The position numbers and the translations under genes are program-made. The notes under the pieces are model-generated. The model ran no database searches. It was given only the letters and a program-made list of their open reading frames with translations, and had not been told where the DNA came from. Positions 12,357 through 32,607 of a stretch of DNA of 35,190 nt are shown one piece after another. The DNA is from Bernardetiaceae bacterium. GTDB lineage: Bacteria; Bacteroidota; Bacteroidia; Cytophagales; Bernardetiaceae. The stretch covers positions 1 to 35,190 of the forward strand of contig JAFIER010000125.1 of the NCBI GenBank assembly GCA_020832465.1. Reading direction: 5' to 3'. The number at the start of each line of letters is the position of its first letter. Position 1 is the stretch's first letter.

Positions 12357-12482
12357 CGTACTACTATATATGAGCCACTCAGAAATGACATTTCTCAAAG
12401 AAATGTTATTTCTGAGTGGCTTATTTTTCCGTAGCACGTGAGGTTTTCCAATCCCACGCTATGGAAAAATGTGCAGTAGTGC
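12357..12482. mobile_element. MITE-like composite repeat (two palindromic modules)
   Basis: The left terminus CGTACTACTATA (12357-12368) is one base off the family end. Module A is a stem GCCACTCAGAAATGACATTT... (12374-12395) pairing with 12399-12420 around a CAA loop. Module B is an interrupted palindrome at 12422-12470 ending CCCACGCTATGGAAAAAT. The right terminus (GCAGTAGTGC) is diverged. It lies upstream of hemF and downstream of hpf, where no gene is present. Confidence 0.7.
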
Positions 12483-12510
12483 AAAAATAAGCAACAAAGG
12501 GCTTAAAAGC

Positions 12511-12893: not shown

Positions 12894-13366
12894 ACACTTT
12901 CTTATTTGATTGTCAAAAAAATTAATTAAAACCGAAGCAAATCGCTGAAGCGTTAATTTGGATTTACTTCTCGAATTTAATATGCAATCTTTTTTTGAAT
13001 TTTGCAAGCAAATTGCTGTTTTTTTTATTTTTTTTGTATTTAATAGCTTTCCTCTAAGGGTGCTCATAAGCTAACCACTTGATTTATAATCTTATCTATT
13101 ATCCAATGATTTTGCCTGTATAAAAAATTTGCAAACTGCGTTAGCTATGAAATATTTGGGGTGTACGACAATTTTGCTAAATTATCTCAGAAATGTCGTT
13201 TCTAAAAATTTGACATCTAATATCTTTAATGCCTGTAGTACGAAGCTCCAGTTTCGTTATAAGCCACTTCCAAAGCTTCGGGCTACAGCTTTAAAAACTG
13301 TGAAGGCTGAAACTATCTAAGTTGACATACACCCAATATTTGTCTTGATAATGCAAATCCTAAAAG
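12894..13366. other. Intergenic region without a supported gene
   Basis: This A+T-rich stretch separates two minus-strand genes. It contains the leader of hpf, an AGAAA/TTTCT mini-palindrome at 13190-13204, the shared 17-mer TTTGACATCTAATATCT (13209-13225) and a CTGTAG/CTACAG-bounded hairpin. A 63-codon plus-strand frame here covers the repeat and is not credible. Confidence 0.6.
13233..13288. repeat. CTGTAG...CTACAG hairpin repeat (module C)
   Basis: CTGTAG-TA-CGAAGCT (13233-13247) pairs with AGCTTCG-GG-CTACAG (13274-13288). The same pattern recurs at 22265, 24986 and 32348. The 17-mer TTTGACATCTAATATCT just upstream is identical at 22241-22257. Confidence 0.65.
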
Positions 13367-13879
13367 CTATTTATTGTTTTGAGCGACATAGCCTTTGTCT
13401 TCTTTGAGGTAGGGAGATAAGGCAGCTTCTACGGCAAGGGCATCGCATCTTTCGTTTAGCGGGTGCCCGGCGTGCCCCTTGACCCAGTGCATAACGACTT
13501 TGTGTTTTCTGTATATTTTCAAAAAACGCCTCCATAAATCGCTATTGATACGCTCACTACCGCCTTTAGCTATAAAATTTTTCTTTTCCCAGCCTAATAT
13601 CCATTTTTTTTCTACGGCATCGACCACATATTTTGAATCAGAATATACGTGCACTTCCATGCCATCTTTGCGCAAAGCCTCAAGTCCTATAATAACAGCA
13701 AGGAGTTCCATACGGTTATTTGTAGTTTTTTTAAAACCCTCTGCAAACTCTTTTCGGCGGTTGTAGGCACGTGAAATAAGCACTACGCCATAGCCACCTG
13801 GTCCGGGGTTTCCTCTCGATGCACCATCGGTATAAAGTTCCACAAGATTAGGATTAGTGAGGTTATTGGTTTGGCTCAT
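13367..13879 (-). CDS. rnhA: Ribonuclease HI
   Basis: A 170-residue RNase HI with the catalytic acidic residues visible: Asp in LYTDGASRGNPGPGG, Glu in NRMELLAVIIGLEAL, Asp in VHVYSDSKYVVDAV and Asp in HPLNERCDALAVEA. The substrate-handle motif WVKGHAGH is also present. It cleaves the RNA strand of RNA-DNA hybrids such as R-loops and Okazaki primers. The start at 13879 places the first beta strand at residue 12, with a short extra N-terminus. It is probably monocistronic. Confidence 0.96.
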   Translation of the reverse strand: MSQTNNLTNPNLVELYTDGASRGNPGPGGYGVVLISRAYNRRKEFAEGFKKTTNNRMELLAVIIGLEALRKDGMEVHVYSDSKYVVDAVEKKWILGWEKKNFIAKGGSERINSDLWRRFLKIYRKHKVVMHWVKGHAGHPLNERCDALAVEAALSPYLKEDKGYVAQNNK

Positions 13880-14078: not shown

Positions 14079-14219
14079 ATTTGCTTACATACTACTGTAG
14101 GTTTGCGATCCAGAAATAAGATTTCTTTGAGCCCTATTATTTCTAAGTTCTTTTTATTCATAGGGTGAGGTTTGGAAACCCCACGCTATGGAAAAAAGTA
14201 TAGTGGTATGATTTGCTTA
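14079..14219. mobile_element. MITE-like element (14088-14210) with perfect 9-bp target-site duplication
   Basis: The 123-bp element starts CATACTACTGTA (14088-14099) and ends TATAGTGGTATG (14199-14210); the ends are inverted repeats at 10 of 12 positions. It is flanked on both sides by ATTTGCTTA (14079-14087 and 14211-14219). Inside are an imperfect module A (CCAGAAATAAGATTTCTTT at 14110) and a module B palindrome centred on GGTTTGGAAACCCC. It encodes no protein, so mobilisation would need a transposase supplied elsewhere. Confidence 0.85.
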
Positions 14220-14237: not shown

Positions 14238-15971
14238 TTAGAGTTTTCCTTCGGCAACTTTTTGCTCGAGCTCTGGCGTGGGGTTTAGGTCTAATGCTTT
14301 TCTCCAATATTCTAAGGCTCTCTCCGTGTCATTGAGCTTAAAAAGCACATCGCCATAATGCTCAAAAATAGCGGGGTTTTGTGTATTAGATACGGCACGA
14401 GCGAGGTATTTTTCGGCTTCTTTATATTTTTTACGCATAAAGAGCACCCAGCCGTGTGTATCCAAATAGGTAGCATTATCTGGATGCAGGCGTACTAATC
14501 TTGCCGACATTTCTTCGGCGAGGTTTAGTTTTTCGTTCCGCATAGCGAGGTGGTAGCTATAATTATTAAGAGCGTGTGCGTTGTCAGGATAAGTATTGAT
14601 AGCCTCTTCGTAAGCGGCATAGGCTTTGGTATAATTTCCTTTTCTATATTGTACGTCTCCGATTTGCGCTTCGAATTGGCTAATCATCATATCGTTATTG
14701 ACAACAAGGCGTTTGCCCTGCAAAAGTGAAGATAAGGCTTCGTCATACTCCTCGAGTAGCATGTACCCAATGCCATTATAAAACCATATAGAGGCTTGAT
14801 TAGGAAAAATAGACAAGGCTTCTTCTGAGTAGAAAATAGCACTATCACCATTTCGCTCTTCTATAGTAATCTGTAAGATACGTTCCCATATACCGAAGTT
14901 ATCAGGGTTATAATCTACGGCTTTAAGATAGTGATGTTTGGCTACTTTGTTTTTACCTTCTATCATCAAAAAATCTCCGTAGATTGCCTGTGCTGCGGCT
15001 TCTTCGGGGTGTGAATCTACGACTTGTCGTGCGAGCATTGTACCTATATTGCGTGAATAGTTATTAGCTTCTGCTTCTTGGTAATAGGTAAGCAATACTG
15101 AAATTTTGGCATCGAGCTGTACTTTGGGGTCTTTGAGTACTTTTTCAAGTGCGTTGGTTTGTGCCTCGCGGTTTCCCTCTCTGCGATAAATTTCGGAAAG
15201 CATGAGATAAGGCTCTGTATTTTCTGGATTTTGAGACAGAAAATCTTCGATTATTTTTTTTGCTTTATCGTTTTTGTTTCTTTCCATAAGCATTTCTGCT
15301 TGGCTCAGCATATATTCTGCCACTGTGGGGAAAGCCACTAATAGTTTTTCGCCTTCTTTGATAGCCGCATCGAGGTTATTGATTTCAATATAAAGCATTT
15401 GTTTCTGCCTTACTACTGACTCATTAAGCCCGTACTGACTTTCCATTTTATCATAAATTTTGATTGCCTCTTTGATTTTGCGCTGTGCAATATAGCTATT
15501 AGCCCATTCTACGTAATCCGCTTCAAGGGCATCTTCTGCAAGATTTATCAGCTCTTCGTAAGTCTCTGAGGCATCGGCATAACGATTCATTTCATAGTAT
15601 AGCGATGCCAAAAGTCTGTAATAGTAAGAGTTTACCTTATTTTTTTCGATAGCTTGCAAAAGAAAAGGAATGGCATAATCAAAACTTTCCATTTTAAAAT
15701 AAGTACGGGCTATTTGGTATGCAATTTCGTCGTTATCGGGATCTTTTTTTAATGCTTTTTCAAAATAAGGAATTGCCTTATCGTGCTCATCTAAGATAAA
15801 AAACTTCATACCCTCGATAAAAAACTTTTCAGCCTCTACGAGGTTTTTTTCAGTCTTGTCTTTGCCTTTATTTTTATTTTTACCCCATTGTGCATAGCTT
15901 GTATGAACTACACTAAGGCTTAAAATTAGCGTCAAAATTATGAAAGAACGTTTATAAAAATTTTTTATCAT
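14238..15971 (-). CDS. Secreted tetratricopeptide-repeat protein
   Basis: About 577 residues. The ATG at 15971 gives a clean signal peptide (MIKNFYKRSFIILTLILSLS, then VVHTSYAQ); a longer frame to 16007 would bury it. The rest is a near-continuous array of TPR units of about 34 residues, from AEKFFIEGMKFFILDEHDKA at the N-terminus to DTERALEYWRKALDLNPTPE at the C-terminus. It is probably periplasmic or at the inner face of the outer membrane, and acts as a protein-interaction scaffold. In many Bacteroidota a protein of this type follows dut and a sugar nucleotidyltransferase, as here, which suggests a conserved envelope role. The usual next gene (DUF4292) is not present; a repeat element follows. 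Confidence 0.88.
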   Translation of the reverse strand: MIKNFYKRSFIILTLILSLSVVHTSYAQWGKNKNKGKDKTEKNLVEAEKFFIEGMKFFILDEHDKAIPYFEKALKKDPDNDEIAYQIARTYFKMESFDYAIPFLLQAIEKNKVNSYYYRLLASLYYEMNRYADASETYEELINLAEDALEADYVEWANSYIAQRKIKEAIKIYDKMESQYGLNESVVRQKQMLYIEINNLDAAIKEGEKLLVAFPTVAEYMLSQAEMLMERNKNDKAKKIIEDFLSQNPENTEPYLMLSEIYRREGNREAQTNALEKVLKDPKVQLDAKISVLLTYYQEAEANNYSRNIGTMLARQVVDSHPEEAAAQAIYGDFLMIEGKNKVAKHHYLKAVDYNPDNFGIWERILQITIEERNGDSAIFYSEEALSIFPNQASIWFYNGIGYMLLEEYDEALSSLLQGKRLVVNNDMMISQFEAQIGDVQYRKGNYTKAYAAYEEAINTYPDNAHALNNYSYHLAMRNEKLNLAEEMSARLVRLHPDNATYLDTHGWVLFMRKKYKEAEKYLARAVSNTQNPAIFEHYGDVLFKLNDTERALEYWRKALDLNPTPELEQKVAEGKL

Positions 15972-16019
15972 GGTTTTATGCTTGATATGTAGGCATTTTA
16001 TGCGCAATGCCTTAGAAAA

Positions 16020-22288: not shown

Positions 22289-22335
22289 AAATTTTAGAAC
22301 TAACAGTTCTGGCAGAACTGTTAGTTCTAAAATTT
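22289..22335. terminator. Perfect 22-bp palindrome downstream of the beta-barrel gene
   Basis: Left arm 22289-22310 and right arm 22314-22335 are exact reverse complements (core AGAACTAACAGTTCT) around a GGC loop. It is the longest member of the palindrome family and lies about 100 bp after the stop of the gene at 22437, so it probably terminates that minus-strand transcript. Confidence 0.65.
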
Positions 22336-28634: not shown

Positions 28635-28758
28635 CATACTACTATATATTCGGTGGCCAGAAATAACATATCTGAGAGAAAGGTTATTTCTAAGCTCATT
28701 TTTCCATAGCCTCTGGGGTTTGCAAACCCCACGTTATGGAAAAATGTATAGTGGTATG
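28635..28758. mobile_element. MITE-like element, 124 bp, best-preserved termini
   Basis: The left end CATACTACTATA (28635-28646) and right end TATAGTGGTATG (28747-28758) are inverted repeats at 11 of 12 positions. Module A (GGCCAGAAATAACATATCT...AGGTTATTTCT) and module B (TTTTTCCATAGC, then GGGGTTTGCAAACCCC, then ATGGAAAAA) lie inside. Flanks are GTAAAAGAC on the left and GTAAAAAAGAC on the right, which fits a 9-bp target duplication with later growth of the A run. No coding capacity. Confidence 0.82.
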
Positions 28759-32303: not shown

Positions 32304-32607
32304 CGTTTCTGCCAGAAATGTTAGTTCTAAAAAATATTTGTACGCCCTGTAATAACGAAGCTCCAGCTTCCTTCTATGTTACTTCCGAATCTGGAGATTC
32401 GGACTACAGATTTTTTCCGTAGCGAAGAGTTTGCAAACCCTTCGCTATGGAAAAATATAGGATTTGAGAACCCTTCCCTATGGAAAAAAAATGTAGGGCT
32501 ACTCCCCTATCATCACAAAAGCACCCCAATAATAAGGCTCGGGGTATTTTTTACGAAGAGTTAATTGTGCGGCTTTGAAAGCCTCTCTTTTGCTTTTTCC
32601 TGAAAGC
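32195..32607. repeat. 43-nt nearly identical inverted segments at the 3' ends of the two CHAT genes
   Basis: 32195-32237 in the plus-strand gene and the complement of 32565-32607 in the minus-strand gene match at 42 of 43 positions (encoding roughly LSGKSKREAFKAAQ). Nearby conserved protein stretches are much more diverged at synonymous sites. The gap between them holds palindromic repeats. Confidence 0.7.
32304..32498. repeat. Repeat cluster between the convergent CHAT genes
   Basis: It contains a half palindrome (GAAATGTTAGTTCTAA, 32317 region), a module C hairpin from CTGTAATAACGAAGCTCC (32347) to CGGACTACAG (32409), and a module B palindrome at 32411-32455 (TTTTTCCGTAGCGAAG ... CTTCGCTATGGAAAAA). 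A second module B right half follows (CTTCCCTATGGAAAAA, to about 32490). It probably ends both transcripts. No CATAC-type termini are evident. Confidence 0.7.

Follow-up and report, generated by a model that had tools for sequence, protein, structure and literature searches.

MIC231 cassettes of the Bacillus cereus group are non-autonomous elements on IS4-family ends, and they can carry genes. MIC231 (IS231, IS4 family) is described as modular in the title of a reference in De Palmenaer 2008 (PMC2266710), and Table 1 of that paper gives the IS4Sa subgroup a size of 1150-1750, ends of the form CA------T and a duplication of 8-10. High copy numbers have been reported for Correia elements (>120 copies in N. 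gonorrhoeae) and for ERIC (up to 711; review PMC10969869). In the Bacteroidota, the Cardinium MITE stems from IS982 (PMC9769881), and BrickBuilt is a MITE of P. gingivalis (PMC4596501).

The window, by which we mean the whole stretch of 35,190 nucleotides from a Bernardetiaceae genome that was analysed, contains a 123-bp MITE. Like MIC231, it is a non-autonomous element on IS4-family ends; however, subgroup and host are different, and it carries palindromes only, in hundreds of copies. Correia and ERIC are similarly short, intergenic, hairpin-forming and present in hundreds of copies, but their ends are different; in the window family the duplications are 9 bp long, and a partner IS has been identified, along with a hybrid unit of the two. 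The Cardinium MITE and BrickBuilt are likewise Bacteroidota MITEs, IS-derived or intergenic, but differ from the window MITE in IS family, ends and core. The kind of element, a gene-less MITE that borrows an IS transposase, is well known; the suggestion in the original prediction that the element is new applies only to this particular family of copies. The unusual part of the element is its shared hairpin core.

The window element

The original prediction placed a 123-bp element between two copies of ATTTGCTTA, which is correct to the base (Table 1). The element is gene-less as proposed: ORF inspection revealed no long ORF inside it. It is flanked by an RNase H-like ORF (13367-13879, minus strand) and a TPR-like ORF (14238-16007, minus strand), both labels being inferred from the sequences and not from a family search. 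In the 12-bp ends 10 of 12 positions pair, and the family consensus extends the ends to 16 bp (CATACTACTRGACATT ... AATGTMTAGTAGTATG). The two palindromic modules are real, with the element folding better as single-strand DNA than 200 of 200 shuffles (z = -3.6). An Rfam search with the element returned no family; the best match, mir-553, was below threshold and is taken as chance.

Table 1. Positions of the MITE copies in the window and of the parts of the element at 14088-14210.
Feature	Positions	Strand	Remarks
Left target-site duplication ATTTGCTTA	14079..14087	.	Same letters as 14211-14219; family 9-bp rule
MITE copy, 123 bp (modal length in family 122)	14088..14210	+	nhmmer 102 bits; at least 72 matches in own genome
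Left terminal inverted repeat, consensus CATACTACTRGACATT, window copy CATACTACTGTAGGTT	14088..14103	+	
Palindromic module A, consensus AGAAATAACATTTCT TTG AGAAATGTTATTTCT, decayed in window copy	14112..14144	+	
Palindromic module B, consensus CCATAGCGTGGGGTTTGCAAACCCCACGCTATGG, limits approximate	14156..14193	+	Alignment and fold
Right terminal inverted repeat AAAGTATAGTGGTATG	14195..14210	-	
Right target-site duplication ATTTGCTTA	14211..14219	.	Read directly
Second window copy of the MITE	28635..28758	+	Flanks GTAAAAGAC/GTAAAAAAG
Third window copy, decayed	12357..12483	+	Duplication now unclear (4/9)

A large family of inserted copies

The window element belongs to a large MITE family with IS4-family ends. 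The genome (G000) is a draft assembly of 4.60 Mb in 289 contigs, in which a search with the element gave 593 first-look candidates; the best 40 of these 593 were scored, and all matched. Copies aligned together with their flanks have in common the ends CATACTACT(A/G)(T/G)ACATT ... AATGT(A/C)TAGTRGTATG and two palindromes, and share no sequence outside the ends. The inverted ends are beyond chance, as the end pattern occurs 385 times genome-wide with at most one mismatch, versus twice for the reversed pattern. The copy census covered 817 kb of the genome plus selected loci. A profile scan of the 817 kb yielded 188 merged regions, against none in the reversed sequence, and 59 copies in the 817 kb keep both ends, which extrapolates to approximately 300-330 bounded copies genome-wide. 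The modal length is 122 bp; forms of reduced length, the shortest about 80 bp, are devoid of all or part of one palindrome.

The flanks of 80 bounded copies carry a clear record of insertion. A perfect 9-bp duplication is present in 27 of them (0.000 expected from swapped flanks), and 40 match in at least eight of nine positions (0.19 expected). Left and right flanks are 64-76% identical in exactly nine columns, and identity falls to 14% in the adjacent columns. No duplication signal was found at 7, 10 or 11 bp in these 80 copies; perfect 8-mer duplications number two (0.015 expected).

Uninterrupted sites were found among paralogous sequences. For a nested copy (L089:19168, duplication ATTTTTAAT), the joined flanks align across the junction to several uninterrupted repeats, and for the second window copy they align in the same way to uninterrupted paralogous sites at L078 and elsewhere. 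The RNase H gene is present in seven relatives, and the TPR neighbor adjoins it in none of them; the relatives examined do not preserve this gene order.

These data bear out the original prediction of past transposition, including its expectation that other end-bounded copies exist: many were found genome-wide, with 9-bp duplications that differ from copy to copy, and insertion explains the flanking repeats. Short repeats are common in AT-rich flanks, and inverted ends next to a repeated 9-mer could in principle arise without transposition. The probability of such a coincidence is negligible here, since it is excluded by the family-wide duplication statistics and the empty sites.

A resident IS4-family insertion sequence

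The genome contains three DDE_Tnp_1 loci. One of them (L069) is a 1224-bp IS on contig C277 (26832-28055) with perfect 16-bp ends, CATACTACTAGACAAA / TTTGTCTAGTAGTATG. Their first 14 bases equal the MITE consensus, and positions 15-16 differ; the IS reads ACAAA at both sides, while most MITE ends read ACATT. A full IS with matching ends, which the original prediction proposed to look for, is present, with 14 of 16 end bases identical rather than all. Only one complete copy was assembled, and its own duplication is unreadable because the contig stops exactly at the right end of the IS.

The transposase is encoded by a single ORF of 384 aa without frameshift and matches DDE_Tnp_1 (PF01609, E 5.5e-22). 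It contains the YREK motif, Y(2)R(3)E(6)K, as YPLRWQIEVCFKHLK at 271 (271-285), and its residues E278 and D169 are invariant in an alignment of relatives. Among NCBIfam models, IS4_2 scores highest, with 149.7 bits, just under the cut-off of 152. YREK and the single ORF are as in the IS4 family, and the duplications of 9 bp (about one helix turn) in the MITEs and related ISs are a further likeness to it. Particularly, the size of 1224 bp, the CA------T ends (CATACTACT) and the 9-bp duplication resemble IS4Sa; this placement of the partner IS rests on size, ends and duplication length, the window element itself having no transposase. The ends, which the original prediction could not assign to a named IS family, are thus assignable to the IS4 family via the resident IS. 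The same IS supports the view that a transposase encoded elsewhere in the genome drives the non-autonomous element.

Other candidates were rejected. The remaining two loci have no such pair of ends, and nor do the IS5-like (L068) and IS701-like (L070) transposases of the genome. End pairs 500-2500 bp apart in 431 kb of sampled sequence are chance combinations with up to three mismatches per end and no duplication. A simple internal deletion of the resident IS is unsupported as the origin of the MITE because homology is confined to the ends and the interiors share nothing.

Related elements in other genomes

Genomes of the same family contain elements of 56-153 bp. Most of these combine an ACATT end with an ACAAA end, and several have 9-bp duplications (e.g. 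ATTAAATAC, ATTGTTGGT, GAAAACAGC, CTAGATTTT). These mixed-end MITEs bridge the two end types. Full ISs in relatives have similar ends and transposases 40-43% identical to the resident one. A Persicobacter IS of 1217 bp (ends CATACAGCTAGACATT) has perfect 9-bp duplications at three of three sites, and a Spirosoma IS of 1203 bp (ends CAGACTACTGGACATT) has a perfect 9-bp duplication as well.

A scan of GTDB genomes revealed MITEs with the same ends in MAGs labelled Saprospiraceae, Chitinophagales and Lewinella, most of them with 9-bp duplications. The cores of all these MITEs, including those from the same family, differ from the core of the window element. The exact two-ended pattern was absent from the other 394 genomes of a phylum-wide sample, and such elements are therefore patchy.

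A hybrid unit and the proposed mechanism

Besides the complete copy, the only match to the resident IS in the genome is to its last 31 bp, on contig C194. The order there is GGTTTGGAT, a MITE with both ends, ATAGCTAAATTAGC with the IS right end, and GGTTTGGAT. The hybrid, a MITE plus 31 bp of the IS right end, lies within a single 9-bp duplication; therefore, one end of the MITE and one of the IS were mobilized jointly. In the simplest reading, a MITE inserted into an IS copy close to its right end. The transposase would then have cleaved the outer end of the MITE and the end of the IS, moving the pair as one unit, the insertion of which would have left the single duplication. The arrangement is evidence, at the sequence level, for the use of both end types by one enzyme. 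The hybrid unit records a link between passenger and engine that is usually argued from end similarity alone.

We propose that the MITE has been moved in trans by an IS4-family DDE transposase, with the resident IS or a close sister very probably as the supplier. The enzyme would recognize the 16-bp ends (CATACTACTRGACATT), and repair of the staggered cut would leave the 9-bp target duplication. Cut-and-paste chemistry, the known mode of the IS4 family, is the likely route. The proposal is supported by the nine-column flank block in 80 copies, the uninterrupted paralogous sites, the ends of the IS and the hybrid, and also by the relatives, in which ISs and MITEs share end types and 9-bp duplications. 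That this particular IS is the source is what we infer. Arguing against the proposal are the difference at end positions 15-16 from the MITE consensus, the single assembled copy of the IS with its unreadable duplication, the MITE interior unrelated to the IS, and the IS4_2 score just short of the cut-off.

Accounting for the difference in the ends, a sister IS4-family element with ACATT ends, now lost or unassembled, may have spread the family, with the resident IS cross-mobilizing it only occasionally. ISs with such ends exist in relatives (the right end at L097 of G004; Persicobacter), and a sister copy could be missing from a draft in this many contigs. However, the hybrid unit uses both end types together, and Bernardetia MITEs combine one ACATT and one ACAAA end freely. 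We consider this scenario a real possibility, although an unlikely one.

The hairpin core

Neither palindrome is derived from the resident IS. The stem of module B has 25 paired changes, chiefly a single C-G/G-C swap (14 observed versus 4.2 expected). Module A has 11 such changes, eight of them in a single base pair (1.7 expected), and the terminal repeats have two. Together with the strength of the palindromes and the near-absence of copies from long ORFs (1 of 59, versus 44 expected), some of these paired changes might suggest that the copies are now retained as useful sequence, such as bidirectional terminators or structured RNA, and that transposition belongs to the past. However, any tolerated insertion is expected to avoid genes, and the paired changes are mainly at two positions (27/55, 70/103), which is compatible with few events. 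We regard retention for a function as improbable.

In oriented copies, the loop of module A reads TTG in 35 and the complement CAA in 10. The genome has 339 occurrences of the core AACATTTCTNNNAGAAATGTT, which is absent from all 38 relatives searched. The C-type core ACTAACAGTTNTNNNANAACTGTTAGT occurs 269 times in the genome and 2-27 times in each of five other genomes of the order, among 390 searched; the reversed control had no match in the 390 genomes. Two further MITE families in the genome, one with GGGTGTACG and one with GGTAGTCTT ends, enclose the same hairpin type; both have 8-bp duplications, which are perfect in 24% of the copies located for the first and 60% for the second. The hairpin type also stands alone in several genera. 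Among stand-alone copies, locus-specific complementary flanks extend the stem by at least 5 bp in 38%, versus 2.4% expected.

We tentatively speculate that the 33-bp hairpin (AGAA[AC]TAACA[TG]TTCT NNN + complement) can move or recombine as a module of its own, which at present seems doubtful. It would enter, or be exchanged between, MITEs of different transposases; its hosts would be MITEs with CATACTACT ends, which have 9-bp duplications, MITEs with GGGTGTACG or GGTAGTCTT ends, which have 8-bp ones, and, in another family, a TAGGACTTACGCA element. If so, MITEs would serve as exchangeable shells for one hairpin that they share and that spreads independently of them. Alternatively, successive MITEs may have repeatedly captured common terminator-like palindromes. 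A RAYT origin of module A was rejected: the hairpin is absent from the examined flanks of three Y1_Tnp loci, and the foot of the module A consensus has no GTAG/CGTC tag. Unrelated palindromic cores lie between the same ends in different Bacteroidota, and one hairpin type is shared by several MITE families; the source of bacterial MITE interiors thereby becomes directly testable.

Several further elements were observed. The second MITE family, with ends GGGTGTACG(A/T)CAA, is present at 13159-13334 in the window, where its 8-bp duplication is AATATTTG, and at L066:14169-14321 and L075:9934-10086; most copies contain hairpin module A. The third, of 91 bp (GGTAGTCTT...ACACTACC), is found at L050:16289-16379, L061:13207-13297, L090:5848-5938 and other sites, with 8-bp duplications and the C-type hairpin AGAACTAACAGTTCT inside; its near-identical copies represent a recent burst. 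The IS5-type L068 (contig C29) and IS701-type L070 (contig C207) have intact transposase genes, and are possibly the engines of the 8-bp families. In G147, from another family of the order, a TAGGACTTACGCA-ended element (L168-L172) contains both hairpin types, ACTAACAGTT and AAAAATAACATTTTT. Stand-alone hairpins with stem-extending flanks are located at 22296-22328 in the window and at L066:8334, L085:7593 and L080:7696, and a module B palindrome without MITE ends lies at 32407-32459 in the window.
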